Source: Vulcanimicrobiota bacterium
GTDB lineage: Bacteria; Vulcanimicrobiota; Vulcanimicrobiia; Vulcanimicrobiales; Vulcanimicrobiaceae
DNA: 64,000 bases
Direction of reading: 5' to 3'
Assembly: GCA_003140215.1 (NCBI GenBank)
Contig: PLJL01000001.1
Span: 948,390-1,012,389, forward strand
Position numbers and translations under genes: made by a program. Every line of letters starts with the position of its first letter. Position 1 is the stretch's first letter. Of this stretch, positions 2,360 through 63,782 are shown in pieces. The notes under the pieces are model-generated. The model ran no database searches. It was not told the origin of the DNA and worked only from the letters and a program-made list of their open reading frames with translations.

Positions 2360-2360
2360 T

Positions 2361-5651: not shown

Positions 5652-7955
5652 GTGAACCAAAAGTGGATGCAGGGCTTCGCCGCAATCGTCGGTGTTCTCG
5701 TGCTGAGCGGCGTCGCGCTCGCCGCTGCCGGCGTGACGACGCTTCCGACGGGGTGGAAGATTCGTGCCGCCGACGGACCGGTCGCGACGGTCGGAACGCT
5801 GCCCACCGGGCTGGCCCTCTCGCGCGACGGCTCGCGCGTGTTCGTGCTCGAAGCTGGACACCGCAAGCCCGCGCTGCGCGTGCTCGACGCGACGACGCTG
5901 CATGAGCTGCGCAGCGTCCCGCTCAACGGGGCGTACGGCGCACCGCTGCGCGATGCCGATGGCGACGGCGTATGGGTCGCCATCGCCGGCACGTTCCAAG
6001 AATCGATCGCACACATCGACACGACGACCGGCACAGTCGACCACACGGTCTCGATGCCGGTACCGTTCTATCCCGTCGCGATCGCGCGGGCGCCCAACGG
6101 CCGGCTCGCCGTCGCCGGCGACCTCGTCGATCGCGTCGCCACGGTCGATACGGCCGCACTGCGCGTCGTCGCGACGCAGGAAGCGGGGCGCCACCCGGCT
6201 GCCGTTCAGTTCTCGCCCGACGGGAAGACGTTGTACGTCGCCGACCGCGCCTCCACGTGGGTGTCCGCTCTTGGTGCGAAGGCCGGACGCATCTTCGTCG
6301 GGCACCATCCGGTCGCACTAGCCAGCGACGGAAAGCTGCTCTACGTCGCGGTCAGCGACGATGACACCGTCGCGGTCGTCGCCCTCGCCACCAACCGCGT
6401 CGTGCAGTTCGTGCGCGTCCCGTTCGCGCGCGCCGGCGCCGTCGGGACGTCACCCAATGCGCTGACGCTGGACGGCGAGCGCCTCTACGTGAGCTGCGGC
6501 GCAGCCAACGCGGTGGCCGTCTTCCGCACCGGCCCGCACGGGCTCACGCCGCTGGGCGCGATCCCGGCCGGCTGGTATCCGACCGCCGTCGCGGTCGACC
6601 GCGCGCACGGGGCGCTCTTCATCGCCGACGGCAAGGGCGAGTCCGGACACGCCAACCCACGCTTCAACCCGACCGCCCGCACCGAGAGCGACTACATCGC
6701 CGACAACCTGGTCGGCTCGATCCGGCGGATCGCGATCCCCGACGACGCTGCGCTGCGGCGCGGACTCGTCGACGTGCGCGAGCTCGCCCAGCACGAAAGC
6801 GTTCCGGCCGATCCGGTCGTGCGGGCCGGCGGCCCGATCAAGCACGTCATCTACGTGATCAAAGAGAATCGCTCGTACGACCAGGTTCTGGGCGACGTCA
6901 GCGCGGCCGACGGTGATCCTACGCTCGTCATGTACGGCGAGAAGATCACGCCCAACCAGCATGCGATCGTGAAGCGCTTCGGCGTGTTCGACCGGTTCTT
7001 CGAGAACGCGCATGTCAGCGCCGACGGGCACAACTGGTCGGCCGCGGCGTTCGCCAACGACTACTTGGAACGCATGTGGCCGCAGAACTACGCGACCCGC
7101 CGCCCGTTCTACGACTTCGAGGACGGCGCGGAAGCGGCCGTGCCGCACGCGGGATACCTTTGGGACGAAGCGGCCAGGCGCAGCGTGTCGCTGCGCAACT
7201 ACGGCGAGTACATGACCTCCGGCCCGAGCGGACCGACCCCGGTGTCGTCGATGAACGCCGTGCTGATGAAGAACACCGATCGCAACTACGCTACCTTCGA
7301 CATGAGCGTCGAGGACATCGCGCGCTTCAACGAGTGGAAGCACGAGTTCGACGCCTTCGAAGCGTCGCGCACCCTGCCGCAACTGGAGATCGTGCGCTTT
7401 CCGCGCGACCACACGTCGGGGACGCGATCAGGGGCCGTGACGCCGCAAGGGATGGTCGCCGACAACGACCTCGCCGTCGGCAAGCTCGTCGAAGCGGTCT
7501 CGCACAGCCCGGATTGGAGCAGCACGGCGATCTTCGTGATCGAGGACGACGCTCAGAACGGGCCCGACCACGTCGACGAGCAGCGCTCCACGTTCTATCT
7601 GGCGTCACCCTACGCAGCGGGCGGGGTGCAACACGCGATGTACACGCAGGCCTCCGTACTGCGCACGATCGAGATCCTGCTCGGGATGCGGCCGCTGTCG
7701 GCTTACGATGCAGGGGCGGCGCCGCTGACGGCGGCCTTCACCGCGACGCCCAACCTCACGCCCTTCGACGCCCTGCCGGCGCAGGTCGACGTGCACGCGA
7801 AGAACGCCGCCACCGCGTATCGCGCGGCCGACAGCGCAGGGCTCAACTTCGCCGTTGCCGACGCGGTCGACGAGGCCACGCTCAACGACATCTTGTGGCA
7901 CGACGCCAAGGGCGCCAAAGCACCCCTGCCGCGCTACGGAAGCTTCGACCGCTAA
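5652..7955 (+). CDS. Exported beta-propeller/phosphoesterase fusion protein
   Basis: A 767-residue exported protein. After a signal peptide (residues 1-27) come roughly 350 residues of YVTN/WD-like propeller repeats (for example QFSPDGKTLYVADRASTWV and YPTAVAVDRAHGALFIAD). A phosphoesterase domain of the PF04185 type follows, starting KHVIYVIKENRSYDQVLGD, with HVSADGHNWSAAAFANDY and IFVIEDDAQNGPDHVD supplying the likely metal/phosphate residues. The domain family includes phospholipases C and acid phosphatases. The fused architecture is known in bacteria, but the substrate is unclear. The GTG at 5652 follows GAGGCGG and gives the signal peptide; the much longer open frame upstream is a shadow of chrA. 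Confidence 0.88.
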   Translation: MNQKWMQGFAAIVGVLVLSGVALAAAGVTTLPTGWKIRAADGPVATVGTLPTGLALSRDGSRVFVLEAGHRKPALRVLDATTLHELRSVPLNGAYGAPLRDADGDGVWVAIAGTFQESIAHIDTTTGTVDHTVSMPVPFYPVAIARAPNGRLAVAGDLVDRVATVDTAALRVVATQEAGRHPAAVQFSPDGKTLYVADRASTWVSALGAKAGRIFVGHHPVALASDGKLLYVAVSDDDTVAVVALATNRVVQFVRVPFARAGAVGTSPNALTLDGERLYVSCGAANAVAVFRTGPHGLTPLGAIPAGWYPTAVAVDRAHGALFIADGKGESGHANPRFNPTARTESDYIADNLVGSIRRIAIPDDAALRRGLVDVRELAQHESVPADPVVRAGGPIKHVIYVIKENRSYDQVLGDVSAADGDPTLVMYGEKITPNQHAIVKRFGVFDRFFENAHVSADGHNWSAAAFANDYLERMWPQNYATRRPFYDFEDGAEAAVPHAGYLWDEAARRSVSLRNYGEYMTSGPSGPTPVSSMNAVLMKNTDRNYATFDMSVEDIARFNEWKHEFDAFEASRTLPQLEIVRFPRDHTSGTRSGAVTPQGMVADNDLAVGKLVEAVSHSPDWSSTAIFVIEDDAQNGPDHVDEQRSTFYLASPYAAGGVQHAMYTQASVLRTIEILLGMRPLSAYDAGAAPLTAAFTATPNLTPFDALPAQVDVHAKNAATAYRAADSAGLNFAVADAVDEATLNDILWHDAKGAKAPLPRYGSFDR

Positions 7956-7958
7956 CGC

Positions 7959-9122
7959 GTGACGCTCGCGCTTCCGGCCGACAATCTGTGGGCGTTCGCG
8001 GCCGTCTGGCTGGCGCTCGCAACCGCAGCCGCCTTCCTTGCGCGGCGCGTCGGGCTGGCCGCCGCGCTGGTTGAGATCTTGCTCGGCGTCCTGGCGGGAA
8101 ATCTGATCGGCCTGCGGTCGAACGCCTGGGTCGACTTCATCGCCGGCTTCGGAAGCATCATGCTGACCTTCCTCGCCGGAGCGGAGATCGAGCCGACCGT
8201 CCTGCGCCGGCAGCTGCGGCCGGCCGCCGCGATCGGTGCGATCTCGTTTTTTGCGCCGTTCCTGGCCGCCATGGCGTACGCGTACTTCGTGATGCACTGG
8301 AGCGTTGACGGGTCGAAAATCGCCGGCATCGCGATGTCGACCACCTCCGTCGCGGTCGTGTACGCGGTGATGGTGGAAACCGGGCTGGCCGGCAAGGACT
8401 TCGGGCAGCTGATCCTCGCGGCGTGCTTCATCACCGATCTCGGAACCGTCGTCGCCCTGGGCCTGCTGTTTGCGAACTACAACGGGTGGCTCATCGCGCT
8501 GGTTCTCGCGATCGCGGTTGCGTTCGTGTTCGTGCCGAAGATCCTGCCGGCGGTGTTCGAGCGGACGGGACGCTGGGTCAGCGAGCCCGGAATGCGCTTG
8601 ATGTTCCTGATCATCGTCGTGCTGAGCGCGATCGCGACCGCGGCCAAGAGCGAGGGGGTCCTGCCGGCGTACTTCCTCGGGCTTGCGTGCGCGGGCTTCC
8701 TGTTCGCGACTCCGGACGTCTCGCGGCGCCTGCGCTCGATGACGATGGGCTTCTTGACGCCGTTCTACTTCCTCAAGGCGGGGACGCTCGTCTCGTTTTC
8801 GGCGGCGACCGCCGGGATCGGAGCGATCGCGGCGTTCTTCGTCGTCAAAGTCGGTGCGAAGTGTCTGGGCGTGTTTCCGGTCGCGCGCGCGTTCAACCAC
8901 GGGCCGAAGAACGCTAGCTACATCACGCTCATGATGGCAACGGGGCTGACGTTCGGGACGATCTCGAGCCTCTACGGCCTCACCCACCACTACATCGACC
9001 AGGCGCAGTACACGACGCTCGTGACGGTGGTGATCCTAACCGCAGTCGTGCCGACGATCATCGCGCAGGCGTTGTTCCATCCCAAGGAGTTCGTGGACCC
9101 CGAGGATCTCGGCGTGCCCTGA
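7959..9122 (+). CDS. CPA2-type cation/proton antiporter
   Basis: Polytopic membrane protein of 387 residues resembling the transport domain of the CPA2 Na+(K+)/H+ exchangers. Features include a first helix pair with LVEILLGVLAGNLIGL, the FLAGAEIEPTVLRRQ segment where the family has an acidic LxGLE(L)-like motif, and about 11-12 hydrophobic segments. There is no C-terminal TrkA-N domain; the protein ends shortly after the last helix with PEDLGVP. The GTG start lies 3 bases past the preceding stop, so it is probably cotranscribed with the phosphoesterase gene. Confidence 0.87.
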   Translation: MTLALPADNLWAFAAVWLALATAAAFLARRVGLAAALVEILLGVLAGNLIGLRSNAWVDFIAGFGSIMLTFLAGAEIEPTVLRRQLRPAAAIGAISFFAPFLAAMAYAYFVMHWSVDGSKIAGIAMSTTSVAVVYAVMVETGLAGKDFGQLILAACFITDLGTVVALGLLFANYNGWLIALVLAIAVAFVFVPKILPAVFERTGRWVSEPGMRLMFLIIVVLSAIATAAKSEGVLPAYFLGLACAGFLFATPDVSRRLRSMTMGFLTPFYFLKAGTLVSFSAATAGIGAIAAFFVVKVGAKCLGVFPVARAFNHGPKNASYITLMMATGLTFGTISSLYGLTHHYIDQAQYTTLVTVVILTAVVPTIIAQALFHPKEFVDPEDLGVP

Positions 9123-9132
9123 GCGCCTACAC

Positions 9133-9567
9133 CTAGCCGGCTGCTGCCGCCCGCTTTTGCGCCCAGGAGCGCAGCGCGCCGACAACGGCTCCGGTGATCA
9201 CGAAGCCGATGACGGCATAGCCCGCGTCGATCAGGATCAGCGCGACTGGCCGAGCTTCGTAACTGTAGGCGATCGTCAGCATCGCCGCTGCGATGCAAAC
9301 CCCGGTGAGGACACCCACCTGGGCGCCCTTTGCGGCGTCGGCGCGTTCGTAGTGCCACAACATGTTGTCGAAGCAGTACGCGATGAAGAGCCCGGCCACG
9401 AACGAAATCAGGTACGGCCAGTAGCCGGTCGCCGCCAACTCCAACTTTGACTTCCCCACTGCGCTGAGCCAGGTCGCGCCCAATGCGGTGTACCAGAGCG
9501 CACCGAAAAGCCAGAAGACCACCGACCCCGCGACGATGCCAAGGTAGTTCGGACGACGAGCCGTCAT
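9133..9567 (-). CDS. DUF1761 family membrane protein
   Basis: Small membrane protein of 144 residues with four hydrophobic segments. It shows the DUF1761 pattern: an N-terminal helix with VFWLFGALWYTALG, then WLSAVGKSK, a second helix FVAGLFIAYCFDNMLWHY, and two more helices. The function of the family is unknown. An AGGGAGAA ribosome site precedes the ATG. It stands alone, convergent with the antiporter gene and divergent from the OFA transporter. Confidence 0.85.
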   Translation of the reverse strand: MTARRPNYLGIVAGSVVFWLFGALWYTALGATWLSAVGKSKLELAATGYWPYLISFVAGLFIAYCFDNMLWHYERADAAKGAQVGVLTGVCIAAAMLTIAYSYEARPVALILIDAGYAVIGFVITGAVVGALRSWAQKRAAAAG

Positions 9568-9688
9568 CGAGTTCTCCCTTTCTTACACGCGGCCGAGCGG
9601 CCGCTGTCCCCCAAGCCTAGCCTCGGCGCGACGCATTGTCCAGCGCCCCGATCGCACTCCAGCCGCCCATTCGCCCCTACGGGGCAGG

Positions 9689-9731
9689 CCACCGGGCCAC
9701 CGCTTGCGTAAACGCGCAACCACCGGGCCAC
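9689..9731 (+). promoter_or_regulatory. Direct plus inverted repeat operator before OFA transporter
   Basis: Two identical 12-base direct repeats CCACCGGGCCAC (9689-9700 and 9720-9731) lie 31 bases apart, about three helical turns. Between them is an inverted repeat TTGCG (9704-9708) and CGCAA (9715-9719). It sits 35 bases upstream of the OFA transporter start, where a repressor or activator would act. No convincing -35/-10 pair was recognised around it. Seen directly; the role is inferred. Confidence 0.55.
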
Positions 9732-9765
9732 TCACGCCCGCCTCAGCGCGTAGAGGAGCTATATT

Positions 9766-11169
9766 TTGGCGTCTTTCCTCGACCGGTCGCATTCCATCGC
9801 CGGCCCCGGGTTCAGCAGGTGGCTGGTCCCCCCCGCGGCTCTCTGTATTCACCTGTGCATCGGCCAGGCGTACGCATTCAGCGTCTTCAACAAGCCGCTG
9901 GCGCAGTTGCTCTGCTCGATGCAGAGCGCGTGCCCTCCGGCGGCCGCGAAGGTCATCTCCACGACACCCGGGGACTGGTCGATCGCGAACCTCGGCTGGA
10001 TCTTCAGCCTCGCGATCGTATTCCTCGGCCTTTCGGCGGCCGTCTTCGGCCGCTGGGTCGAATCGGCCGGTCCGCGCGCGGCGATGTTCGCGGCCGCATG
10101 CCTGTTCTGTGGCGGACTGCTCGTCGCGGGACTCGGCGTGTCGCTGCACAACTTGCCGATCGTCTTCCTCGGCTACGGCGTCATCGGCGGCTGCGGCCTG
10201 GGCATCGGGTACATCTCGCCCGTCTCGACCCTGATCAAATGGTTTCCGGACCGTCCGGGCCTCGCGACCGGTACCGCGATCATGGGCTTCGGCGGGGGCG
10301 CGCTGATCGGTGCGCCGCTCGCGGTCGCGCTGATGAAGTACTACAGCTCGCCGACCTCCAACGGCGTCGCGCCGACGATGATCACGATGGCGATCGTCTA
10401 CTTCGTCGTCATGATCGTCGGACCGTTGATCGTGCGGCTCCCTGCCGCCGGCTGGCATCCCGCCGGCTGGACGGCGCCGACCGCGGAAGCGTCCTCGGCG
10501 AGAATGATCACGACCCGCAACGTCGTGGTCTCCCAGGCGATCAAAACCCCGCAGTTCTGGCTCCTCTGGGGCGTGCTGTTCTTGAACGTCACCGCCGGTA
10601 TCGGCGTCCTCGGACAAGCCTCGCTGATGATTCAGGAGATGTTCGGCGTGACGGTCGCGGCGGCGGCGGGATTCGTCGGCCTGCTCAGCCTGTTCAACAT
10701 GGGAGGCCGCATCTTCTGGGCCTCGATGTCCGACTTCATGGGTCGTAAGCGAACGTACGTGATCTTCTTCGCGCTCGGTGCGATCTTGTACGCGTCGGTT
10801 CCGACCTTCGGCCATTGGCACGCGATCGTGCTGTTCGTCCTCGCGTACGGCATCATCCTGACCATGTACGGAGGAGGCTTCTCGACGATCCCCGCCTACC
10901 TGCGCGACATGTTCGGGACGGTGCAGGTCGGCGCGATCCACGGCGTTCTGCTCACTGCGTGGTCGGCCGCCGGCATCGCGGGCCCCGTGCTCGTCAACTA
11001 CATTCGCGAATACCAGATCGCGCACGGTGTCGCAAAGGCCGACGCGTACTCGGTCACCGTGTACGTCATGGCAGGCTTGCTCATCGTCGGCTTCATCTGC
11101 AATTGGCTGGTGAAAACGGTCGACGAGCACCACTACGTGACCACCGGCGCCGCTGACGCGACGGCCTGA
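9766..11169 (+). CDS. OFA-family MFS transporter (oxalate/formate type)
   Basis: Major facilitator of 467 residues with 12 predicted membrane helices. The N-terminus (RWLVPPAALCIHLCIGQAYAFSVF) is typical of the oxalate/formate antiporter family, and LSLFNMGGRIFWASMSDFMGRKRTY matches the conserved MFS loop between helices 8 and 9. OFA proteins exchange or take up small carboxylates such as oxalate, formate or lactate. The TTG at 9766 follows a strong GAGGAG. It is followed by its tiny partner gene and faces a formate dehydrogenase operon, so formate or oxalate is a reasonable substrate guess. Confidence 0.9.
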   Translation: MASFLDRSHSIAGPGFSRWLVPPAALCIHLCIGQAYAFSVFNKPLAQLLCSMQSACPPAAAKVISTTPGDWSIANLGWIFSLAIVFLGLSAAVFGRWVESAGPRAAMFAAACLFCGGLLVAGLGVSLHNLPIVFLGYGVIGGCGLGIGYISPVSTLIKWFPDRPGLATGTAIMGFGGGALIGAPLAVALMKYYSSPTSNGVAPTMITMAIVYFVVMIVGPLIVRLPAAGWHPAGWTAPTAEASSARMITTRNVVVSQAIKTPQFWLLWGVLFLNVTAGIGVLGQASLMIQEMFGVTVAAAAGFVGLLSLFNMGGRIFWASMSDFMGRKRTYVIFFALGAILYASVPTFGHWHAIVLFVLAYGIILTMYGGGFSTIPAYLRDMFGTVQVGAIHGVLLTAWSAAGIAGPVLVNYIREYQIAHGVAKADAYSVTVYVMAGLLIVGFICNWLVKTVDEHHYVTTGAADATA

Positions 11170-11183
11170 GGAGCATACACACG

Positions 11184-11312
11184 ATGGAATCCAACGCAAC
11201 GACCGACAGCGGAAATACCGTCAAGCTGGTGCTGGCCTGGCTGTGGGTCGGAATCCCGCTCGCCTGGGGCGTCTACATGACGCTCGGAAACGCGATCAAG
11301 CTCTTCCAGTAA
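11184..11312 (+). CDS. OFA transporter small subunit
   Basis: A 42-residue single-pass membrane protein (MESNATTDSGNTVKLVLAWL, then WVGIPLAWGVYMTL, ending AIKLFQ). It starts 14 bases after the OFA transporter gene, with its ribosome site GAGGAG overlapping the transporter stop, so the two are translated together. Small proteins of this kind are known next to OFA/MFS genes and are described as MFS transporter small subunits. It is followed at once by a strong terminator. Confidence 0.85.
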   Translation: MESNATTDSGNTVKLVLAWLWVGIPLAWGVYMTLGNAIKLFQ

Positions 11313-11331
11313 CCGCATCATCGAGCCAACC

Positions 11332-11371
11332 AAAAAGAGGTCCGTGCGAGAGCACGGGCCTCTTCTTTTTT
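11332..11371. terminator. Bidirectional intrinsic terminator
   Basis: Stem GAGGTCCGTGC (11337-11347) pairs with GCACGGGCCTC (11352-11362) around a GAGA loop, with one G-T wobble. It is flanked by an A-run on the left (11332-11336) and a T-run on the right (11366-11371), so it can stop transcription from both the OFA transporter and the convergent formate dehydrogenase operon. Confidence 0.9.
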
Positions 11372-11388
11372 GTCATCCCGACGTGGTG

Positions 11389-14136
11389 TCAGAGGAGTGC
11401 CGCGCCGACCTTCTCGCCTCTGCGCAGCTTCACCGCGCAGAACTTGAACTCGGGGATCTTTCCGAACGGGTCGATCGCGTCGTTGGTCAGCAGATTCGCC
11501 GCCGCTTCGTTGTAGACGAACGGCATGAACAGCGTCCCGCGCTGGGTTCCCCGGTCGGCGCGCGCGTACGCCGTCACCGTTCCGCGCCGCGACTCCAGCG
11601 TGATGACGCCGCCCGGCTCGACGCCGAGCTTGGCGAGGTCGTCGGGGTGGACGCTGATCACCGGATCGGGCTCGAGCTCGTCGAGCACGCTGGCGCGCCG
11701 CGTCATCGAGCCGGTATGCCAATGCTCGAGTTGCCGCCCGGTGGTGAAGATGTAGGGATACTCGGAATCGGGCATCTCGTCGGCATGCGAGTAGGCCGCC
11801 GGCGCGAACAGGCCGCGGCCGCCGGCGCGCGGGAAGTCCTCGATGAAGATGACCGGTTCGCCCGGATCGCCTTCGTGCTCGAGCGGATAGGTGCACGAGC
11901 CTTCAGCCTCGAGGCGCTCCCAGGTGATCCCCGCCATGCTGGGCGTCGCCGCGCGAATCTCTTCGAACACCTCGGCCGGACCGTTGTAGTTCCAGTCCAA
12001 GCCGATGCGCCGCGCGATCTCACCGATGATCCACAGATCCTGGCGCGCGTCGCCCGGCGGATCGAGTGCTTGACGGCCGAGCTGCACGCGGCGGTCGGTG
12101 TTGGTGAACGTCCCGGTCTTCTCGGGAAACGCCGACGCCGGCAAAATCACGTCGGCATAACTCGCCGTCTCCGTGAAGAAGATATCCTGAACGACGAGAT
12201 GGTCGAGCTTGGTGAACGCTTCGCGCGCGTGCTCGACGTTCGGATCGGACATCGCGGGATTCTCGCCCATGATGTACATCCCGCGGATCTGGCCCGCGTA
12301 TGCGGCGTTGGTGATCTCGGTGACGGTCAGCCCGGCCACCGGGTCGAGCTTGACGTTCCACAGCGCTTCGAACTTGGCACGCGCCGTCGCCTTGTCGACG
12401 CGCTCGTAGTCCGGATACATCATCGGGATCAGCCCCATGTCCGAGGCGCCCTGCACGTTGTTCTGCCCGCGCAGCGGGTGCAGCCCCGTCCCGGGACGAC
12501 CGATCTGGCCGGTGACCAGCGCGAGCGAGATCAGGCAGCGCGCGTTGTCGGTGCCGTGGATGTGCTGTGAGATGCCCATGCCCCAGAAGATGATCGCCGC
12601 TTTGGCGTTGGCATAGAGGCGCGCAACCTCGCGGATCGTCTGCGCATCGACTCCGGTGACCGGCGCGACCTTCTCGGGCGAGTACTCCGCGACGTTGGCT
12701 CGCAGCGCTTCGTAGTTCTCGGTGCGGTCGCGGATGAAGTCTTGGTTCGCCAGCCCTTCCTCGATGATGACGTGCAGCAACCCGTTGAGCAGCGCGACGT
12801 CGGTGTCGCCGTTGAACTGCAGGAAGTAGGTCGCATGGCGCGCCAGGTCGCTGCGGCGCGGGTCCATCAGGATGATCTTGGTCCCGTTCTTCGCGGCGTT
12901 CTTCATGAACGTCGCGGCGACGGGATGGTTGATGGTCGGGTTGGCGCCGATGACGATTGCGACGTCGGCCAATGCGACGTCTGCGACTTGATTCGAGACC
13001 GCTCCCGACCCGACGTCCTCCAGCAATGCCGCAACCGACGAGGCATGGCACAACCGCGTGCAATGATCGACGTTGTTGGTTCCGAAGCCGGTGCGCACGA
13101 GCTTCTGGAAGAGGTACGCTTCCTCGTTGCTGCCCTTGGCGGAGCCGAAGCCCGCGAGACCCTTGGGCCCGTGCGTCTCCCGGATCGCGCGCAGCTGCGC
13201 GCCGGCGAGGTCGAGCGCTTCCTCCCACGTCGCCTCGCGAAACGTCTCCCACATGTCGTCGGGATCGATTAGCGCCGGCGTCTTGGCGACGCCGTCCTTG
13301 CGGATCATCGGCTTGGTGAGACGCTTGGGATTGTGGACGTAGTCGAAGCCGAAGCGGCCCTTCACGCACAGCCGGCTGGCATTGGACGGCCCGTCGCGGC
13401 CGTCGACGGACAAGATCTTTCCGCCCTTGATGTTGTACGTGAGCAGACAGCCTACGCCGCAATACGGGCACGCCGAATCGACCGTCTTGTCGGGCTCGAC
13501 CATGGCGACGCCGTTGGCCGGCGCCAGGGCGCCGGTCGGGCAGGCCTGCACGCACTCCCCGCAGGCGACGCACGAGCTGCTCTCCATCGGGTCGTCGAAA
13601 TCGAAGACGATCTTGGCATGCTCGCCGCGCCAGGCGTATCCGATGACGTCGTTGACCTGTTCCTCGCGGCAGGCGCGCACGCAGCGACCGCATTGGATGC
13701 ACGCGTCGAGGTTGACCGACATCGCCGGATGCGACAAATCGGGAACCGGCTGGCGGCGCTGCGGATAGCGCGGCTGCGTGACGCCGAGCTTGGCGGCCCA
13801 GACGTCGAGCTCCGAGGCTTTCTTGTACGGCGACGTCGTCTGCCCGGGCATGTCGGTGAGCAGCAACTCGGCGACCATTCGCTGCGACTTGACGGCGCGC
13901 TCGCTCGTGCTCGCCACTTTCATCCCTTCGGCGGGGCGGCGGCAGCACGACGGCGCCAGGACGCGCTCGCCCTCGATCTCGACCATGCAGACGCGGCAGT
14001 TGCCGTCGGGGCGGTAGCCGTCTTTGTAGCACAGGCGCGGAATGGCGATGCCGTGGCGGTCGGCAGCCTGCAGGATCGTCTCGTCGTCGTGCGCGGCCAG
14101 CGGCGTGCCGTCAAGCGTGAAGTTCAGCGTCGTCAT
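11389..14136 (-). CDS. fdhF: NAD-dependent formate dehydrogenase, catalytic alpha subunit
   Basis: Cytoplasmic molybdenum- or tungsten-pterin enzyme of 915 residues oxidising formate to CO2. The order is: N-terminal 2Fe-2S domain (Cys36, 47, 50, 64), a His/Cys cluster region, two 4Fe-4S ferredoxin motifs (Cys146-156 and Cys189-199), a fourth cluster (Cys223, 226, 230, 257), then the bis-MGD domains. The catalytic residue is Cys363 in DHCTRLCHASS, where selenocysteine enzymes have Sec; no in-frame TGA is involved. His364 follows as in the family. The ATG at 14136 overlaps the diaphorase stop (ATGA). The electron route is clusters to the FMN/NAD subunit encoded upstream. Confidence 0.95.
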   Translation of the reverse strand: MTTLNFTLDGTPLAAHDDETILQAADRHGIAIPRLCYKDGYRPDGNCRVCMVEIEGERVLAPSCCRRPAEGMKVASTSERAVKSQRMVAELLLTDMPGQTTSPYKKASELDVWAAKLGVTQPRYPQRRQPVPDLSHPAMSVNLDACIQCGRCVRACREEQVNDVIGYAWRGEHAKIVFDFDDPMESSSCVACGECVQACPTGALAPANGVAMVEPDKTVDSACPYCGVGCLLTYNIKGGKILSVDGRDGPSNASRLCVKGRFGFDYVHNPKRLTKPMIRKDGVAKTPALIDPDDMWETFREATWEEALDLAGAQLRAIRETHGPKGLAGFGSAKGSNEEAYLFQKLVRTGFGTNNVDHCTRLCHASSVAALLEDVGSGAVSNQVADVALADVAIVIGANPTINHPVAATFMKNAAKNGTKIILMDPRRSDLARHATYFLQFNGDTDVALLNGLLHVIIEEGLANQDFIRDRTENYEALRANVAEYSPEKVAPVTGVDAQTIREVARLYANAKAAIIFWGMGISQHIHGTDNARCLISLALVTGQIGRPGTGLHPLRGQNNVQGASDMGLIPMMYPDYERVDKATARAKFEALWNVKLDPVAGLTVTEITNAAYAGQIRGMYIMGENPAMSDPNVEHAREAFTKLDHLVVQDIFFTETASYADVILPASAFPEKTGTFTNTDRRVQLGRQALDPPGDARQDLWIIGEIARRIGLDWNYNGPAEVFEEIRAATPSMAGITWERLEAEGSCTYPLEHEGDPGEPVIFIEDFPRAGGRGLFAPAAYSHADEMPDSEYPYIFTTGRQLEHWHTGSMTRRASVLDELEPDPVISVHPDDLAKLGVEPGGVITLESRRGTVTAYARADRGTQRGTLFMPFVYNEAAANLLTNDAIDPFGKIPEFKFCAVKLRRGEKVGAALL

Positions 14137-55114: not shown

Positions 55115-55918
55115 ATGTCCGTTCACAGCCCTGGAGCGACGCGCTCGCTCGCCCGCGTCATCCCCGCCGCAGCCACGCTCGAAGGCGGCGGCTTCTTGGT
55201 CCATCGCCCGCTTCCGACGCGCAGCGTCGAACAGGTCGATCCGTTTCTCTTGCTCGACGAGATGGGGCCGCTGGAGCACGCACCGGGCGAGGCGCAAGGC
55301 GCGCCCGATCATCCGCATCAGGGCTTCGAACTCATCACCTACCTGTTGGCGGGCGAGATGGAGCATCTCGACTCACACGGCAACCACGGGGCCCTGCGCC
55401 CGGGCGACGCCCAGTACATGCTTGGCGGCGCCGGGCTCGTCCACTCCGAGATGCCCAGCGAGGCGTTCTTGCGCAGCGGCGGGCGGCGGCACGGCTTTCA
55501 GATCTGGGTCAACCTGTCGCGCACTGACAAAGCGCTTGCGCCGCGCTACAAGGACGTGCGCGCCGCAGATATCCCCGTCGCGCACCCGGCGGACGGCGTC
55601 ACGGCGCGGGTGATCGCCGGCGACGTCTTCGGCCTGCAGGGGCCGGTGCACACGGCAACGCCGTGGAGCTACGTTCACGTCACGCTCGCACCGGGCGCGC
55701 GTGTCGAGCAGGCGGTGCCGGCGGGCTGGACCGCGACCGCGTACGTCTTCGACGGCGCCGGACGCATCGGTTCACGCGAGGTGCGGCGCGGCGACTACGC
55801 CGTTTTCGCCGCCGACGGCGCCACGATCGCGCTGGAAAACACCGGCGAGCAGGTGCTCGAAGCGCTGCTGCTGTGCGCGCGTCCCGTCAACGAGCCGATG
55901 GTGCGCTATCCGGAATAG
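55115..55918 (+). CDS. Pirin family protein
   Basis: A 267-residue bicupin of the pirin family. The N-terminal cupin carries the metal site: DHPHQGFELITYLLAGEMEH and HSEMPS (three His and a Glu). The second cupin starts near ARVIAGDVFGLQGPVH. Bacterial pirins include quercetin 2,3-dioxygenase-like enzymes and redox-linked regulators. The ATG at 55115 follows GGAGAGG. It is the last gene before the low-GC island. Confidence 0.93.
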   Translation: MSVHSPGATRSLARVIPAAATLEGGGFLVHRPLPTRSVEQVDPFLLLDEMGPLEHAPGEAQGAPDHPHQGFELITYLLAGEMEHLDSHGNHGALRPGDAQYMLGGAGLVHSEMPSEAFLRSGGRRHGFQIWVNLSRTDKALAPRYKDVRAADIPVAHPADGVTARVIAGDVFGLQGPVHTATPWSYVHVTLAPGARVEQAVPAGWTATAYVFDGAGRIGSREVRRGDYAVFAADGATIALENTGEQVLEALLLCARPVNEPMVRYPE

Positions 55919-55979
55919 TCCCTAGACTCTACCGGAACTGGACCATCCGCCGCAGAAAGCCTTAATTAACAGGGCCGCA

Positions 55980-57158
55980 ATGCGGCTTCCCACGGAGGAT
56001 TCTGAGAGCCCCATGGCCGTCTCTCTATTCTTTTGTTCCGAGGGGTTCACGATCGGCGGCGAACCCTATCCTGACCTGCCTCTCTTCCTCGACACGACGA
56101 CCATGAGCGTCCACTTCCTCCCGACCGAGTGGATGATTCATCTGGCGGTATACAACGGTCGAACACGCTCGGCCCACACGTGGCGCGGCTATGCTTACGA
56201 CCTGGCCCAGTGGCTTCGGTTTTGCGAGGATCGCGTCTGGAATTGGCGATCGCCGATGGAAGAGCATCTCGCTCATTTCCGGAACTCGCTTGAGAAGCAT
56301 CCTGCACGATACAAACGCAAGACGATCGCGAAGAAGATGGTCGTCCTCTGCTCTTTCTACGAGTGGGCGGCGGCAGCCGGCTACGTCAAGACATTGCCGG
56401 TGAGCTTCGCGGCAACTGTGCGCACGACATCGAATCGGACATTACTTGCACACTTAGAACAGCGCAGGATCACTCACCGTCGCGTGTTAGTGCCGCGAAC
56501 CTCCACATCCGAGCGCATCCCACGCTTCTTCGCGGTCTCCGAACGACAACGATTCTTGGCCGGACTTGGCGATCGGGACCGATTAATCGTCCTGTGGGCG
56601 CTCTACACCGGCGCGCGCGAGCATGAACTGTGTGCGCTTGAGGTCGATCAGATTCCACCTCAGAGCCACTACCGATCGGGAAAACTCTATCGTTTGCCGC
56701 TACGCGTTACGAAGGGTAATGTCCCCGGTGACCTCTACGTGCCAACATTCTTGCTTGACGAAACATACCGCTATATGAAGCTCTTCACGCGGCGGTCCGT
56801 GGCACGGGCTGCTGAGCGCCGCGGCAAGTCAGTTTCTAATGCGATTTTCCTGTCCCGATACGGCAACGGTCTGAAGCCCGACTCGCTCTATCGCAATTTC
56901 AAGAAGGCACTCGCCAGCGCGGGCATCGTTGACGGAACGTTCCACGATTTAAGACATACCTACGCGATTACGATGCTCGATAGGCTCATGCTCGCAGCAC
57001 GGACGCCCGAGGCGCGAGTGCGCAACCCGCTCTTGGCTCTCAAAATACTGATGCGCCACGCAAGCCTATCATCCACGGAGATTTACTTGCGCGCTCGAGA
57101 GATGTACTTCGACGATATCGAACACGACTCGTACGAGGTCCCTGATGTCGCGGCGTAA
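55980..57158 (+). CDS. Tyrosine recombinase 1 (TnpA-like)
   Basis: A 392-residue tyrosine recombinase with all catalytic residues: Arg213 (TGAREHEL), Lys245 (RVTKGN), His322/Arg325 (HDLRHTY), His360 (MRHASLS) and nucleophile Tyr369 (TEIYLRA). The N-terminal 60-170 region is a SAM-like core-binding domain. It matches the TnpA position of Tn554-type elements. The start is uncertain: the ATG at 55980 lies inside a GCCGCA-A-TGCGGC palindrome, and an ATG at 56013 preceded by GAGAG is possible. Its last 14 bases overlap the next gene. Confidence 0.9.
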   Translation: MRLPTEDSESPMAVSLFFCSEGFTIGGEPYPDLPLFLDTTTMSVHFLPTEWMIHLAVYNGRTRSAHTWRGYAYDLAQWLRFCEDRVWNWRSPMEEHLAHFRNSLEKHPARYKRKTIAKKMVVLCSFYEWAAAAGYVKTLPVSFAATVRTTSNRTLLAHLEQRRITHRRVLVPRTSTSERIPRFFAVSERQRFLAGLGDRDRLIVLWALYTGAREHELCALEVDQIPPQSHYRSGKLYRLPLRVTKGNVPGDLYVPTFLLDETYRYMKLFTRRSVARAAERRGKSVSNAIFLSRYGNGLKPDSLYRNFKKALASAGIVDGTFHDLRHTYAITMLDRLMLAARTPEARVRNPLLALKILMRHASLSSTEIYLRAREMYFDDIEHDSYEVPDVAA

Positions 57159-58776
57159 GAATGAAGAAGATGTCGGGTACGGCGACTCCCTCGACTGGGA
57201 GTACAAGACTCGCCGGCTCGCAGATGCGACCGTGCGCTTCGACGACTGTGGCAACCGCACGGTCGCCGTTGAGATTGTGAACGCGGCGAAGCGCCTATTT
57301 TTTCATTCGCCACCGAATTCGGTCGAAAGCGCGATCGCTAACGTGCGCGTATTGCTTCAGGCTGTTACCAAACCCGCCGTGGGATCTACCTCGGTTCAGG
57401 GCTGGAATGATGCCTTGATCTCGTCTCTGCGCCAGCGGGCGACTGGCACGAGCTCGCGTCATACTCGATATAAGCTGTGTTCGCTGATCCTTCGCGAGAT
57501 CGCTCGCGAGCGTGGTGAAGCCGTCGTGCTGCGGAACCCATTCCCTATGGGCGAAAAGACCCTCCCCCTGGCTGATCCTGAATCAGTTCGGAAGACTCTG
57601 CTTTGCGCTCGTCGCGATGTCGCTCGCTTTTGGAGCCGCTTCACCGCCGATGACTCTCACGAGGACTGGGCGATCATCGAGCGCGCGCGCGACCTCGCGC
57701 GGCGAAACGGCGGCTTCCTGCCGCACTTCGAGGACACTGCTCCGCTTAGGCACGAGTTTGTCAGATGGATTCAGTGGCTCAACTACCATCGCCCGGAACC
57801 CATCGGACGACGAACGCTCGAGCCGTACTGTTATGCCACGCCTCGCGCTTTGCTGGCTATTATTATTTTGATCGTACACCGACTTGCCGGGAACGTCGAC
57901 TCGGTCGTCTCACTTCGGCGAGACTGCCTGAGGGAAATCCCCGACCCGGTTTACGGGTCCCGGTTCATACTGACGATGGCGAAACCGCGAGCGAGGCGCG
58001 ATCTTCAGTACCGCTTATTGGACTCGGGACGTCTTAGCGTCCCTTCATTGATCCGCATGGCGCTAGCGCTAACCGAGCCCCTCGTGCCCCTGGCCGATCA
58101 GAGCCACCGGCATCTTCTGTTCCTGACGAGCACCCATCGGGGGCAATCCCTTCCGTTCTTGCTCGTATCAAAGCACTTCAAAGCGTACCTCGAAGCCGCG
58201 AATATCTCCCCGCCCTTTACGCTCCAAAGCGTCAGGCCAACTCAGATCGTCAAGACGTATACCGACACCGGCGATCCGTTTCGGGCAAAACATGAGGCGA
58301 AGCACGCTAACCTATCTCAGACGATGGGTTATCTTCGACGACACGAGGTCGCTCAATTTGATGAGTCCATCATCGCTGACACTCAGGACGATATGTTTCA
58401 CCGCGAGATCCGCGCCGCAGACTCGGCATCGCCGGAACACCACGCCGACGCCGTTCTTCCGAGCCATACTTGTCTCGACCCCGCACACCCGGAACACGCC
58501 GATGTCGAGAATGGACTTTGCATGAATCTCCTATGGCCGCTGAACGACAGGCATTTTGTGATGCCGTTGGAGCCTAAGCCGGTCGCCTTCCTACTCCGCG
58601 ACTACGCCGCTTTGAAAGAGGCGCAGCGCACGGTTTCGTCCGATCGCTTCAATGCGCTCTACCGAACGAAGATGTTGTTGATCGAGCAGCAATACCTGCC
58701 GCAGATTACCGAATCCCTAGCGGACACGGCACGAGCCCTCGTCCCGTCACTCCCAGCCGCGCTCACCCTGTCATGA
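57145..58776 (+). CDS. Degenerate tyrosine-recombinase-like protein (middle gene)
   Basis: A 543-residue protein that aligns by eye to the recombinase fold but has lost key residues. The box I Arg position reads Asn250 (LAGNVDSVVSLRRD), and box II has Arg364 but not the preceding His (QSVRPTQIVKTY). His387 and a Tyr at 396 (KHANLSQTMGYLRR) remain. A Cys/His-containing region (HTCLDPAHPEHADVENGLCM) may bind zinc. It probably serves as a structural or DNA-binding partner to the two intact recombinases. Overlaps are 14 bases before and four bases (ATGA) after. Confidence 0.8.
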   Translation: MSRRKNEEDVGYGDSLDWEYKTRRLADATVRFDDCGNRTVAVEIVNAAKRLFFHSPPNSVESAIANVRVLLQAVTKPAVGSTSVQGWNDALISSLRQRATGTSSRHTRYKLCSLILREIARERGEAVVLRNPFPMGEKTLPLADPESVRKTLLCARRDVARFWSRFTADDSHEDWAIIERARDLARRNGGFLPHFEDTAPLRHEFVRWIQWLNYHRPEPIGRRTLEPYCYATPRALLAIIILIVHRLAGNVDSVVSLRRDCLREIPDPVYGSRFILTMAKPRARRDLQYRLLDSGRLSVPSLIRMALALTEPLVPLADQSHRHLLFLTSTHRGQSLPFLLVSKHFKAYLEAANISPPFTLQSVRPTQIVKTYTDTGDPFRAKHEAKHANLSQTMGYLRRHEVAQFDESIIADTQDDMFHREIRAADSASPEHHADAVLPSHTCLDPAHPEHADVENGLCMNLLWPLNDRHFVMPLEPKPVAFLLRDYAALKEAQRTVSSDRFNALYRTKMLLIEQQYLPQITESLADTARALVPSLPAALTLS

Positions 58777-60602
58777 GTAGCGCTCTTGTGGCGACGGATC
58801 GCCCTCACTCGTTCCAGGTTTCATCACGCAGCTCTTTCGGCGACTCTGTGTGGCATCTCGATATCGCCGCCGGACACGCCCGGAAGTCTCATGCATCAAT
58901 CGATTGGCGCATTCCACTTCGCGACGGATCGTTCCTAACGGATGCGCAGCACTCCCGATGCCTGGCGAGCTGTAAGTCGTTGCTAGTCCTTTTGTCAGAG
59001 GGAAAAGGGAACTCCGGCATTCCGCATCGCCGCAGCTCGCTTGTTCGGAAGTACGAATCGCTTCGCGCGCTTCTCTCTTGGTTGCCGGCGACACCGCATG
59101 TGACATTGTCTCATTTGAACGAAGAACGACTTGCGAGCTACTGCAGGTCGCTGCGTACGCGGCGCGCGAAGGTACGCGGTACCGCAGGTAAGTACGTGCC
59201 GCACGCACGTCGGCTCTCCGAAAGCTCGATTCGCCACCTGCTTCAAATCACAGTCGACTTGGCCTTCGTCCGTGAGCTGCTGCCCGATGCGCCGCAGATC
59301 TCCGTCTTCGAAGCGCAGCGACTGGCATTCGCCTCCGCTTTGTCCACGCACGGATCGACACCGCGTATACCGGACGCCAAATTCGAAGCGCTTATGCAAG
59401 CGTCAATGTACTGGTTGGCCACCGTGGCACCACCTGTCCTAGCACGCGATGCGGACCTCCGAACCATCCGGCGTCAGTGCAGTAAGAATAACCTTCATCG
59501 TCATTATCAGAAATACTATGACGACGCCGACCGAGTGGATGTCGTTCGGATCGGAGACGCCGACCACGATATCGCGCGACTTAAGCGCAAGCAACTACTC
59601 TCGTGGCTCAACTTTACGCAAACGGCATGCTACGCCATTATTGCGGGCTTCACGGGAATGAGAGTAAGCGAGATCTTCTCGCTCCGAAAAGGCTGTCTCA
59701 CGACGAAACCCGTCGCGGAACATGCGCATCCGCTCCTGATCCTCAACGGTATACTCTTGAAGACCGCCGCCCAGGCCGACGGCGAAGCTGCCTCGTGGAT
59801 CGCCGGGTGGGACGATGGCGAGAACCCTGTCCGAGTCGCCGTCCGAATTCTCGAGGCGATTCAGGAACGCTATCCGCAGGACGTCGGCGAACAGCTATTC
59901 GCGGCGATCCGTGAAAACCGGGTCAGTAAGACCGCGGGCCGGTCGGGACACTCTATGTCGCGTCAAGTTAACCGATTCGCCCGCCTCAATGGCATTGTCG
60001 AATGGCAGTTCGCGGCACATCAGTTCCGCAAGACCTTCGCTCGCTTCGTTTCGCTCAAGTCGCCCAACGCTGTGCTGGCTCTGCAGCGCCATTTCAAGCA
60101 CGTTAGTCGTGCGATGACGGAACACTACCTGAGCTATGACGATGGGCTGCTTGACGAGGTCATCGAGCAGTCCTTCGACCTCGACCTAGAGACGCTCGAC
60201 AGGGTTCTCGCCGCCGACAGCCTGGGCGGGCTCAAAGGCGAAGCAATTCTGCTCCGAAATCAAGCGTTCCGGGGCGAGGCCGGGGAAGAGGAGCGCCGGG
60301 CATATATTGAATCAATTCGCAACGATCCGCTCTTCGTTATGCTACGGCATGAGTATGGGATTTGCTTCTATGAGGCCGAGCAGGCCGCATGCGGCGGTCG
60401 GCGTGTCAAGATCGGGCTAGAAACTTGCGTCGACTGCCGCAACTTCGTCGCTGGTCCCGAGCACGCTGCATATTGGCGCGAGCGGTACCGCGCGCTCGCG
60501 GGTGATCATCGAGCGGTGCAGGCGCTGGGTCAAGCGAGCGAAGTCCTCGATCAACAACTGCGGACCGCATCAAAGGTGCTTCATGCCATCGACAAAGCCT
60601 GA
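58773..60602 (+). CDS. Tyrosine recombinase 3 (TnpB-like, large)
   Basis: A 609-residue tyrosine recombinase, close to the length of Tn554 TnpB (about 630). Catalytic residues are complete: Arg297 (TGMRVSEIF), Lys330 (ILLKTA), His416/Arg419 (AHQFRKTF), His443 (FKHVSRA) and Tyr452 (EHYLSY). The C-terminal 150 residues are extra and contain a Cys cluster (ACGGRRVKIGLETCVDC) likely to bind zinc, a typical TnpB trait. Its ATG overlaps the stop of the middle gene. Confidence 0.9.
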   Translation: MSSALVATDRPHSFQVSSRSSFGDSVWHLDIAAGHARKSHASIDWRIPLRDGSFLTDAQHSRCLASCKSLLVLLSEGKGNSGIPHRRSSLVRKYESLRALLSWLPATPHVTLSHLNEERLASYCRSLRTRRAKVRGTAGKYVPHARRLSESSIRHLLQITVDLAFVRELLPDAPQISVFEAQRLAFASALSTHGSTPRIPDAKFEALMQASMYWLATVAPPVLARDADLRTIRRQCSKNNLHRHYQKYYDDADRVDVVRIGDADHDIARLKRKQLLSWLNFTQTACYAIIAGFTGMRVSEIFSLRKGCLTTKPVAEHAHPLLILNGILLKTAAQADGEAASWIAGWDDGENPVRVAVRILEAIQERYPQDVGEQLFAAIRENRVSKTAGRSGHSMSRQVNRFARLNGIVEWQFAAHQFRKTFARFVSLKSPNAVLALQRHFKHVSRAMTEHYLSYDDGLLDEVIEQSFDLDLETLDRVLAADSLGGLKGEAILLRNQAFRGEAGEEERRAYIESIRNDPLFVMLRHEYGICFYEAEQAACGGRRVKIGLETCVDCRNFVAGPEHAAYWRERYRALAGDHRAVQALGQASEVLDQQLRTASKVLHAIDKA

Positions 60603-61035
60603 CGGACGCAATCTACGCAAGAAGCAGACCCGCACGAAGATCCTACAAGCGATTTCTCGTTTGAGCAATGGAACGGCCGTCCACCCACTCCACATCGGTG
60701 TCCGCGTTCGCATCACAAAAGAAGCGGTCGCGCGCGAAGCCGGCGTCAGCAGCGCTACGATCTATCGCTTTCCCGATCTGTGCACGTCCCTTTCCGCATT
60801 GTCCTCGACCACAGACCAGCGTATCAGACCTTCGGAACAGCGGCGCAAGGCACTGCAAGACCGCATTGCCGATCTTGAGCGGATGCTGAACGGCGCACTG
60901 AGCGAAACGGTTCGGCTCACGCGTGAACTCGTGAAGTACGACCCGACGCTCGGAGTAAGGGCGCCCATCTCCCTTGATCAACGTCGCCGAAAGAAGAGCA
61001 ATGTCACCGCGACCTTGAAAAGGAACTCGCGGTAA
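60583..61035 (+). CDS. Small HTH/coiled-coil protein (TnpC-like, DUF6262-type)
   Basis: A 150-residue basic protein: a helix-turn-helix (ITKEAVAREAGVSSATIYRF, about residues 47-66), then a predicted coiled coil (RRKALQDRIADLERMLNGAL, then SETVRLTRELV), and a basic tail. Size, order and architecture fit Tn554 TnpC, which helps set recombination direction and efficiency. The ATG at 60583 lies 20 bases inside the preceding recombinase gene; the longer GTG start at 60502 is less likely. Confidence 0.85.
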   Translation: MPSTKPDGRNLRKKQTRTKILQAISRLSNGTAVHPLHIGVRVRITKEAVAREAGVSSATIYRFPDLCTSLSALSSTTDQRIRPSEQRRKALQDRIADLERMLNGALSETVRLTRELVKYDPTLGVRAPISLDQRRRKKSNVTATLKRNSR

Positions 61036-61082: not shown

Positions 61083-61832
61083 TCATCGCAGGATGCCGGA
61101 AGGCGGTGCTTGACCCCCCGGGCCGCAGCCCTCGAATTTTGGCTGCCGATCACCGTGAGGATCGAGATATTCGATCGCATCGACACACGGAGGCGTCCCG
61201 GACGTGTTCGGCTCGCGGACGACATTAAAGTCGTAATTGTGAAACCCGAGTCGCAGTCGATAACGCCCTGGCGGGAATTCAAAGGAGGGGGTGGGTGAAC
61301 GATAGAGCACCATGTCGCTCGCCGTTCCGTATGGCCCGGATCTGAGCGGATATCCCGTACGTAGGACAGTCCAGTATGATCCGCGGTATCGCGAGGCTCT
61401 CTGAAATTCCAAACTTTGTAACGTCTCCGGGTTGACCCGCCGTTCCGGTGTAACCGTGCGGTCGACAAATGCACGGATGCGAGGAACGATGTATACGAAT
61501 GCATCGTGCGGCGAGCCCAGCGCCACGGCGCGGTCGTACACCACGAACGAAAGCCGACCCGGCTTAACGTATATCTGCGCTCGGTCATGGATAATGCTAC
61601 CGTCGCCCGGCGTGCTCTGGTCGGCGATCCTGTCTCCAGGCCCTCGCTCGACAAAGGCCTCGGGAATCTCAAGCAATTGTCCGTTGGTTAGGACGTAGAC
61701 TCCATAGAATGGTGGAGGCTGCTGCGAGAGACTCGGCGAGGCATCGCTGGCGACCATGAAGGCCGCAGCGAGTATCGTAGCGATCGGCCGTCGAAGCGCT
61801 TCAATGGCCATTCGCAAGAGGTGGTACGGCAC
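61083..61832 (-). CDS. Exported hypothetical protein (island cargo)
   Basis: A 249-residue protein with a signal peptide (IEALRRPIATILAAAFMVAS) and a beta-rich mature part (LSFVVYDRAVALGSPHDAFV; PPGRYRLRLGFHNYDFNVV) ending in a Pro/Gly tail with two Cys. The family is not recognised. Start is the GTG at 61832 or the ATG at 61811, which gives a neater signal peptide. It converges on the recombinase operon with 47 bases between stops. Confidence 0.65.
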   Translation of the reverse strand: MPYHLLRMAIEALRRPIATILAAAFMVASDASPSLSQQPPPFYGVYVLTNGQLLEIPEAFVERGPGDRIADQSTPGDGSIIHDRAQIYVKPGRLSFVVYDRAVALGSPHDAFVYIVPRIRAFVDRTVTPERRVNPETLQSLEFQRASRYRGSYWTVLRTGYPLRSGPYGTASDMVLYRSPTPSFEFPPGRYRLRLGFHNYDFNVVREPNTSGTPPCVDAIEYLDPHGDRQPKFEGCGPGGQAPPSGILR

Positions 61833-62310: not shown

Positions 62311-62751
62311 TTACAGGACCCACGCACGCAACTGAATGTCGTTGAGGAGTCGACGCTTGTCCGCACCCGGCCGAAGGCGATTGGCGACCGAGCGCGCGGA
62401 CAACAAGAAACCCCGCGCCTCGTCCTTCAGACCCGCTGAGATTGCGGCTTGTGCCGCTATCACCAAGAAGCCGCCTTCCATCGCGCGCGTACCGTTTCTC
62501 TCATTCGGCGTCATCTGCGGGTCGCCGTCGTCGTCGTCGGCCACGGTGGCCCATGCTTCTGCCGCGGCCTGACAATAGGCGATGGCGTGGCCCCAATTGC
62601 GAACGTCCATCGCGTTCCAGCACGATTTCTGCACTCGCTTCGCTTGGTTCAAGTGCGCCCATTGCTGGCGCAGGTCATCGGCCTTCACGGTCGTGGAGAG
62701 GACGCCGAAAGCGAGCAGCACGCCGGATGCTGCAGCGAACACGTGTCGCAT
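62311..62751 (-). CDS. Exported helical hypothetical protein (island cargo)
   Basis: A 146-residue protein with a signal peptide (MRHVFAAASGVLLAFGVLST) and a helical mature part resembling TPR-like helices (NWGHAIAYCQAAAEAWATVA, then DEARGFLLSARSVANRL), with an Asp-rich loop and two Cys (KSCWNAM, AIAYCQ). Its ATG shares one base with the stop of the upstream cargo gene (tgATG), so the two are coupled. The ending LLSARSVANRL is reminiscent of the protein at 63207, so the two may be distant paralogues. Confidence 0.65.
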   Translation of the reverse strand: MRHVFAAASGVLLAFGVLSTTVKADDLRQQWAHLNQAKRVQKSCWNAMDVRNWGHAIAYCQAAAEAWATVADDDDGDPQMTPNERNGTRAMEGGFLVIAAQAAISAGLKDEARGFLLSARSVANRLRPGADKRRLLNDIQLRAWVL

Positions 62752-63158
62752 CAAGGCCCACTGGCTCGGTTCGACCCGGATAGCATGTAACAGTCTTTTC
62801 CGCCCGCGCGGACGTGCTCGACGGGCGGTTTGCTCTCCACGACGCTGAAGCGCTGACCCTTCACGATGTGTGTCCCGTGCGTCGCCATCTCGGCCGCGAA
62901 TCCGCCAGGGTCCTGGTCCGCAATGGCGCTCGTTGCCCGTTCCAGCGACTCGGCGCTGTCGAAACACGGAATGTCGTCCTTCGCAACTTCCGTTCCGCCC
63001 GATGCCCCGCTTGTGCCATAGTTATCATCCCTGGTCCACGTAGTCCGCAATGTAAGGTTCGGCGCCTCTGCGTGCCGAGCGGAGTACACGCCGTATCCTA
63101 CCGCGCCGAGGATTCCGAGCACAAGGACCAGCAGGACGAGTTTCGCTTCCTGAGCCAT
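62751..63158 (-). CDS. Membrane-anchored hypothetical protein (island cargo)
   Basis: A 135-residue protein with one N-terminal helix (KLVLLVLVLGILGAVGYGVY) and an extracytoplasmic domain with two Cys (DDIPCFDSAES; GKDCYMLSG) that could form a disulfide. A strong ribosome site (AGGAGA repeated) precedes the ATG at 63158. No family is recognised. It is translationally coupled to the downstream cargo gene. Confidence 0.65.
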   Translation of the reverse strand: MAQEAKLVLLVLVLGILGAVGYGVYSARHAEAPNLTLRTTWTRDDNYGTSGASGGTEVAKDDIPCFDSAESLERATSAIADQDPGGFAAEMATHGTHIVKGQRFSVVESKPPVEHVRAGGKDCYMLSGSNRASGP

Positions 63159-63206: not shown

Positions 63207-63782
63207 TCATGGCGGAGCATTGTGAAAGCACTGACCGCTACCGTTGAATTGATAACGCGCCAGGAAGTTGTTCAACGTTAGTTGTGATGCGTCGAGAGAA
63301 GGCAGGGACATGCCCAAGCGGGACGCAACCGCACGTGCATTCTGAATGATTTGAGCATACCGCGGGGGCGACCCGCGAATGCTCCGCACTGCGGCGAGGC
63401 CGACCCACGCATTTGCTACGTCGGACCTCGCGACGTTCCGATGCTCGGGTGGGCATTGTGTCCTTGCATTGTCTGGAGCAGCGTTGAGTTCCAGCGTAGA
63501 ATGCACGATGCTGAGCGCGGCGCTTACCGCAAGCACGCGCGCGACGACGTCTCGGTCATTGCACGACGCCGCGCGCGCGGCATGAGCGGCGTTAGCACCG
63601 GCGCCATACGCCGCGATCGCGCCCCGCGGATCGTCATGCTTGAACAGACGATCCTCGAACCTCGCGTACGCCGCGTAGCTTGTTGCGGCGGATGCTGCTG
63701 CCGAGGAGCAAGCCGCCGACGCACCACTTCGAAGTGAAATGAAGAGAGCGGCGGCTAGGAGCAGTTGCGTAAAGACCCGCAC
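63207..63782 (-). CDS. Exported Ala-rich hypothetical protein (island cargo)
   Basis: A 191-residue protein with a clear signal peptide (FTQLLLAAALFISLRSGASA, followed by AC). The mature part is Ala-rich and helical with TPR-like spacing (DDPRGAIAAYGAGANAAHAA; SDVANAWVGLAAVRSIRG; IIQNARAVASRLGM), and four Cys in all. It is the first gene of the minus-strand cargo set. The GTG at 63782 follows GAAGAG. Confidence 0.65.
   Translation of the reverse strand: MRVFTQLLLAAALFISLRSGASAACSSAAASAATSYAAYARFEDRLFKHDDPRGAIAAYGAGANAAHAARAASCNDRDVVARVLAVSAALSIVHSTLELNAAPDNARTQCPPEHRNVARSDVANAWVGLAAVRSIRGSPPRYAQIIQNARAVASRLGMSLPSLDASQLTLNNFLARYQFNGSGQCFHNAPP

Follow-up and report, generated by a model that had tools for sequence, protein, structure and literature searches.

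What kind of mobile element is served by a run of three overlapping tyrosine-recombinase-family genes and a small fourth gene? This is the question raised by a locus in the 64,000-nucleotide stretch of DNA analysed here (the window), which comes from a Candidatus Eremiobacterota genome. A preliminary description had proposed a Tn554-like module with an extra recombinase, combining traits of both Tn554 and RIT elements and possibly representing a distinct lineage. We find that the four genes, termed A-B-C-D, very probably form an operon that serves recombination in a site-specific mobile genomic island of 13.4 kb, which has entered a pirin gene at its 3' end. This island belongs with two kinds of elements already described: the strand-biased circularizing integrative elements (SEs), with the genes intA-tfp-intB-srap (PMC10214605), and the genomic islands with three integrases (GInts), with the genes ginABCD (PMC5385486). 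The module is largely explained by these papers of 2017 and 2023 (GInt/SE).

The four-gene module and its relatives

The module lies on the forward strand and comprises the following genes: A (55980..57158; 392 aa), an IntA/GinA-like tyrosine recombinase with a complete R-K-H-R-H-Y set; B (57145..58776; 543 aa), a degenerate tyrosine recombinase that has lost Arg I and His II and kept K280, R364, H387 and Y396; C (58773..60602; 609 aa), a large IntB-like tyrosine recombinase with a complete R-K-H-R-H-Y set and a conserved Cys-rich C-terminal part; and D (60583..61035; 150 aa), a Srap/GinD/TnpC-like accessory protein with an HTH and a coiled coil. The successive overlaps A/B, B/C and C/D measure 14, 4 and 20 bases; these values and the gene sizes are exactly those first claimed. 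Since long ORFs are cheap in G+C-rich DNA, it is the homologues and not ORF length that show the genes to be real. A matches Phage_integrase (4.7e-14) and a SAM-like core-binding domain, C matches Phage_integrase weakly (2.6e-5), and B alone gave no match in the family search. D shows weak HTH matches only, together with a weak DUF6262-like signal (E 0.078). The host genome contains a single copy of A-B-C-D.

Strong matches to B, C and D occur in the same three of the 149 genomes of the phylum (the window genome and two others, G124 and G033), with a few weak C or D matches in other genomes. The three modules occupy three different sites: the pirin gene (window), a DNA ligase gene (G124, Candidatus Eremiobacterota bacterium isolate RYN_345, contig C251 = JAQBPK010000269.1) and a radical-SAM gene (G033). 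Outside the phylum, colinear modules with the same gene sizes are found on plasmids of Alpha-, Beta- and Gammaproteobacteria, and Mycobacterium branderi has all four genes in the same order (locus coordinates 740-6520). In all-against-all BLAST comparisons each of the four proteins pairs with its own counterparts (A with A, through to D with D), the window B being connected to the SE and to those modules that we presume to be GInts via intermediate sequences only. The trees of A and C recover mostly the same groups. In both, the three modules from Eremiobacterota cluster as a separate clade (100/100); the further groups are Novosphingobium/Mesorhizobium/Ancylobacter/Paraburkholderia (with Methylomonas inside it in the C tree), P. 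aeruginosa/Cupriavidus, PaeT/PaeM/Kpn/Bvi, Psj2/pNL1/Mbr and SE/EcC, the last of which may be joined by a long-branch effect.

The recurrence at other loci and the matching A and C trees indicate that the operon travels as a unit, and that its middle gene is neither recent nor decayed. Hence, the expectation that the four genes would co-occur in the same order at unrelated loci is borne out on proteobacterial plasmids, in Mycobacterium and at the three sites in the phylum. The possibilities that they never occur together elsewhere, or that B is a recent insertion or a decayed duplicate, can be set aside, B being integral across the modules. Three recombinase-fold proteins and an HTH/coiled-coil accessory protein thus make up a conserved transposition module, as had been suggested.

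Other searches had narrower yields. A scan of genome contigs with C alone recovered no relatives, and the scan with the phylum trio recovered, besides the host phylum, a single Oscillospiraceae integrase that is unrelated; B had no match among phage records, and neither did a P. aeruginosa module in E. coli genomes searched at the DNA level. Among the individual loci, Mycolicibacterium aubagnense has at least B-C-D (locus coordinates 1727-6055); the phylum of the mycobacterial modules is not named as a host in the SE and GInt papers. The four-gene module of an E. coli IncC plasmid adjoins a FosG gene (locus coordinates 1234-7421), and that of a P. aeruginosa plasmid adjoins a mercury-resistance operon (locus coordinates 2595-11485).

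Catalytic residues and the middle protein

The complete catalytic sets originally assigned to A and C hold up across their homologues. In A, the residues R213/K245/H322/R325/H360/Y369 fall in invariant columns of the alignment; the same holds for R297/K330/R419/H443/Y452 of C, and two relatives have Arg in place of H416. Across the compared modules nearly all A and C proteins keep the full set, the exceptions being a Leu for His II in one A and an Arg for His II in two C proteins.

Profile-profile comparisons link B to C (E=1.1e-17) and to A (E=2.9e-8), and a profile comparison links it to XerA in the PDB (4.3e-8). Judged by these profiles, B is a real gene of the tyrosine-recombinase fold. 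An AlphaFold model of B built from two sequences reached a pLDDT of 45 and a pTM of 0.30 and was discarded. We compared the B proteins of 20 modules, including the SE Tfp and the middle proteins of the presumed GInts. All 20 lack Arg I and His II, in a region where the alignment of these divergent proteins is uncertain, while the Lys (K280) and the Tyr nucleophile (Y396), present in 20/20, and Arg II, present in 19/20, stand in well-aligned blocks.

What might a recombinase-like protein of this composition do? Loss of Arg I normally abolishes the activity of tyrosine recombinases, and we favor a view in which B would be a structural DNA-binding subunit of the same synapse as A and C, perhaps with residual or complemented activity. 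It is also conceivable, though we consider it rather unlikely, that B is catalytic itself, with A or C supplying Arg I and His II across the synapse to complement its own Tyr, Lys and Arg II: the persistence of these three residues despite the loss of the other two speaks for such an arrangement, whereas the general behavior of the family upon loss of Arg I speaks against it, and the retained residues may be structural.

The residue pattern, with the same two residues lost everywhere and the tyrosine kept, appears to go beyond the published accounts. Tfp has been described as lacking the RHRY motif (PMC10214605), whereas the B proteins compared here keep Lys, Tyr and mostly Arg II. In GInts, the first Arg has been described as missing in GinC, the product of gene 3 (PMC5385486); here it is missing in gene 2, and this is also the case in the presumed-GInt plasmid modules of P. 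aeruginosa and Cupriavidus.

The island, its ends and the pirin target

The target is a pirin gene (55115..55918, forward strand) with Pirin and Pirin_C domains, whose last 32 codons have been replaced by Pro-Glu-stop. Pirin homology ends at 55909, and the missing 32-codon tail restarts at ~69284 (in window coordinates, outside the window). The locus is present in all ten other genomes of the genus, and in 9/9 congeners examined the gene is uninterrupted, with a conserved ..RYGPFVMN.. tail of 32 codons. Headed by A-B-C-D, with the start of the A gene ~70 bp inside the left end, the island extends to about 69283, beyond the window end, and has a G+C content of 60% as against ~70% in its flanks.

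The left end (attL; 55895..55917) consists of host CCGATG, the spacer GTGCGC and the end motif TATCCGGAATA, the spacer being identical to that of the empty sites of the congeners, which have the majority form CCGATGGTGCGCTACGGCCC. The right-end inverted-repeat partner is TATCCGGAGTA (69265-69275, outside the window), and the right junction reads TACTCCGGATA-AATGCGGC-TACGG. The end motifs are inverted repeats that match at 10/11 positions exactly at the junctions, a level reached by 5/1500 random pairs; the only direct repeats around the junctions are TGCGCTA / TGCGGCTA. Inverted end repeats are found in the G124 element as well. The attR spacer AATGCGGC differs from the host sites, as seen in one insertion only. 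The same right spacer is common to the window (69276-69283) and G033 (about 12858) elements, despite their different targets. Further inside, a subterminal repeat CTGGACCATCCGCCGC (55938..55953) has a 15/16 copy near the right end (69174-69189), and a similar motif, CTGGACCAT, lies near the right end of the G124 element: this repeat is a possible recombinase-binding site.

An alternative to a mobile island is that the module was once mobile and that the island is now fixed and inactive. The single copy in the genome and the small number of genomes of the phylum with a module would agree with this, but there is no damage to the four ORFs, the catalytic residues or either end, and the unbroken pirin gene of the congeners suggests a recent insertion. 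We therefore regard such a dead remnant as improbable and favor the reading of a probably mobile island.

Cargo begins directly after D, at 61083, with a gene for a hypothetical protein (61083..61811, reverse strand) which is not a copy of pirin. This is followed on the reverse strand by three small hypothetical proteins (62311-62751, 62751-63158 and 63207-63782) and a PD-T4-7-like anti-phage protein (63964-64923, extending past the window end at 64000; PADLOC E 7.9e-38). An N6/N4 DNA methylase fused to a Mrr-like restriction domain (66481-68313) lies outside the window in the same island. The anti-phage protein and the DNA methylase fit a picture of such islands as carriers of defence genes.

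Relationship to described elements and a proposed mechanism

With the SEs, for which the element on pAQU1 served as the reference sequence, the window module shares several features: the gene order, the full motif in genes 1 and 3 only, the HTH/coiled-coil gene 4, inverted end repeats, a host-derived left spacer and a foreign right spacer. The differences are as follows: its end repeat (10/11) is shorter than the imperfect inverted repeats of 13-19 bp reported for SEs (PMC10214605); BLASTP of B against the SE Tfp at 1e-2 gave no match; the module falls outside the SE branch in both the A and C trees; and its host is Ca. Eremiobacterota and not a gammaproteobacterium. D matches the SE Srap with an E of 5e-5 and the Cupriavidus D with 4e-8. 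The GInts are likewise comparable in having a four-gene operon at the left end, with three recombinase-like genes and a small HLH/HTH gene, cargo straight after gene 4 and site-specific insertion in a protein gene, here pirin. Their flanks have imperfect direct repeats of 10-17 bp. The window A, C and D resemble those of the P. aeruginosa and Cupriavidus plasmid modules, which are presumed, and not named, GInts. As the module has the gene order and end logic of the SEs but lies outside their sequence cluster and host range, we assign it, on sequence grounds, to a separate lineage of the SE/GInt kind and not to a new class. The distinct lineage first suspected is thus upheld by the Eremiobacterota clade, though only inside a kind already described (PMC10214605, PMC5385486), and there is no call for a hybrid of Tn554 and RIT. 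We found no earlier report in the literature of SE/GInt machinery in Eremiobacterota.

Could the element nevertheless be a Tn554-family transposon that acquired an extra recombinase? The two share one ordinary and one large recombinase, a small accessory protein and a foreign right-hand spacer. DUF6262 presumably stands for TnpC, and a DUF6262-like signal is weakly present in D (0.078) and in the D proteins of relatives (0.0011 in the SE Srap); a search of the host's own genome with this family came back empty. However, Tn554 has tnpA, tnpB and tnpC only, and is set apart here by its description as having no counterpart of B. Colinear modules from several phyla have the middle gene in the identical position, and it is thus not a late gain in the window element. 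Further, the target of Tn554 is radC, not pirin. We consider this origin very improbable: the third recombinase-fold gene is integral to the SE/GInt-kind module across phyla. RIT elements total about 3.5 kb and have three overlapping genes for short recombinases, all of them with a putative catalytic motif, and no fourth gene (PMC3414803). The three overlapping recombinase-family genes recall the window module; by this description, however, the latter differs in that A-C span 4.6 kb, B is without Arg I and His II, and D is present. Three-gene modules of pCHQ1 and pNL1 were considered as RIT elements and rejected, their proteins (463, 595 and 741 aa) being far too large.

All four GInt genes are experimentally essential for excision and integration (PMC5385486), and knock-outs of intA, intB and srap stop circle formation by an SE (PMC10214605). 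By analogy with these experiments, the window island would be mobile in a strand-biased manner. A and C would perform strand exchange with B in its proposed structural role, and D would promote synapsis or direction, like TnpC, Srap and GinD. The circle would form by recombination of attL with attR; upon integration, the attL spacer would be taken from the target and the attR spacer brought by the circle. As the attL spacer GTGCGC is that of the host and the attR spacer is not, the window island fits the circle-borne right spacer of the SE/Tn554 model.

Replacement copies of target genes in sister elements

In at least five sister elements a host gene is split in a conserved motif, and a diverged but full-length version of it lies beside the recombinase operon. 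In G124 the interrupted gene is that of an ATP-dependent DNA ligase, with its halves at C251 10759 and 29764; the break falls in ..DKYD|G.., which we take to be the active-site lysine motif of the ligase, and a full ligase ORF starts at the D stop codon. In DNA identity to the congener G122, the element copy (about 78%) is more diverged than the host halves (about 84%). On the same contig (29764-42497), the final ~545 bases of the ligase gene recur 11.2 kb beyond the right ligase half, which may reflect a further insertion or a duplication. In G033, where two contigs share a 141-base end, the host radical-SAM protein is represented by residues 1-38 on the left (79% identical to G034) and 32-294 on the right (83%), and a complete copy of 295 aa (68%) begins 4 bases after D. 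This element measures 10.4 kb (C37; joint 2390-12864); its cargo, assigned by eye, includes an Nramp-type metal transporter, a porin-like protein and an MgtC-like protein.

In Mesorhizobium and Novosphingobium, an antisense ArdC-like zincin gene is split near its HExxH motif and a full zincin copy overlaps the end of D, the element of about 6.2 kb consisting of the module and the copy. On pNL1, an ArdC-like gene is interrupted at residue 235 by a module of three genes that lacks D, and C is followed by a full copy; on UT26S pCHQ1 the right half of an ArdC-like gene is seen. The large D-less modules of three genes on Sphingomonadaceae plasmids (locus coordinates 784-7128 and 225-6569) are followed directly by a full ArdC-like gene, with the host's own copy split. 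Bradyrhizobium betae and Ancylobacter have a DUF736 gene that was probably interrupted around codon 14, the left piece being short, and a full DUF736 copy follows D. The remaining loci of the 28 checked, including the window, had no such copy within the flanks examined.

The literature offers one precedent that we could find for a general rule of this kind: Tn552-II, a Tn554-like element with two recombinases and TnpC, has a target-gene-like gene (tgl) after tnpABC, for which its authors suggest target rescue (PMC12486829). Its target differs, being a plasmid CDS/yolD-like gene, and the window element is without such a copy. A duplicated target gene is noted, but not discussed, in the GInt paper (PMC5385486). 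The replacement copies in the sister elements appear to go beyond the published SE/GInt accounts. We lean towards the interpretation that a "break and replace" habit is common to recombinase-trio elements of different phyla: they would hit conserved, often active-site codons and carry a full-length diverged copy of the target beside the operon, with the window element as a member of the superfamily whose tolerant insertion site, a 3' end, makes a copy unnecessary.

Implications

The analysis adds an uncultured phylum to the hosts of the four-gene recombination machinery, with the ends defined exactly and empty sites for comparison, and unites SEs, presumed GInts and the modules of Alphaproteobacteria in one colinear superfamily. 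The view of the middle protein changes as well: its catalytic motif is not simply absent, but the same two residues are missing everywhere and the tyrosine is kept. Why a reaction with four strand cleavages should call for three different recombinases is a question that this pattern in B opens to point mutation. The replacement copies point to a way in which such islands could afford to have conserved genes as targets, reminiscent of the choice of active-site codons by inteins and homing elements. If "break and replace" is true, insertion would cost the host little and the target would be found in many hosts.
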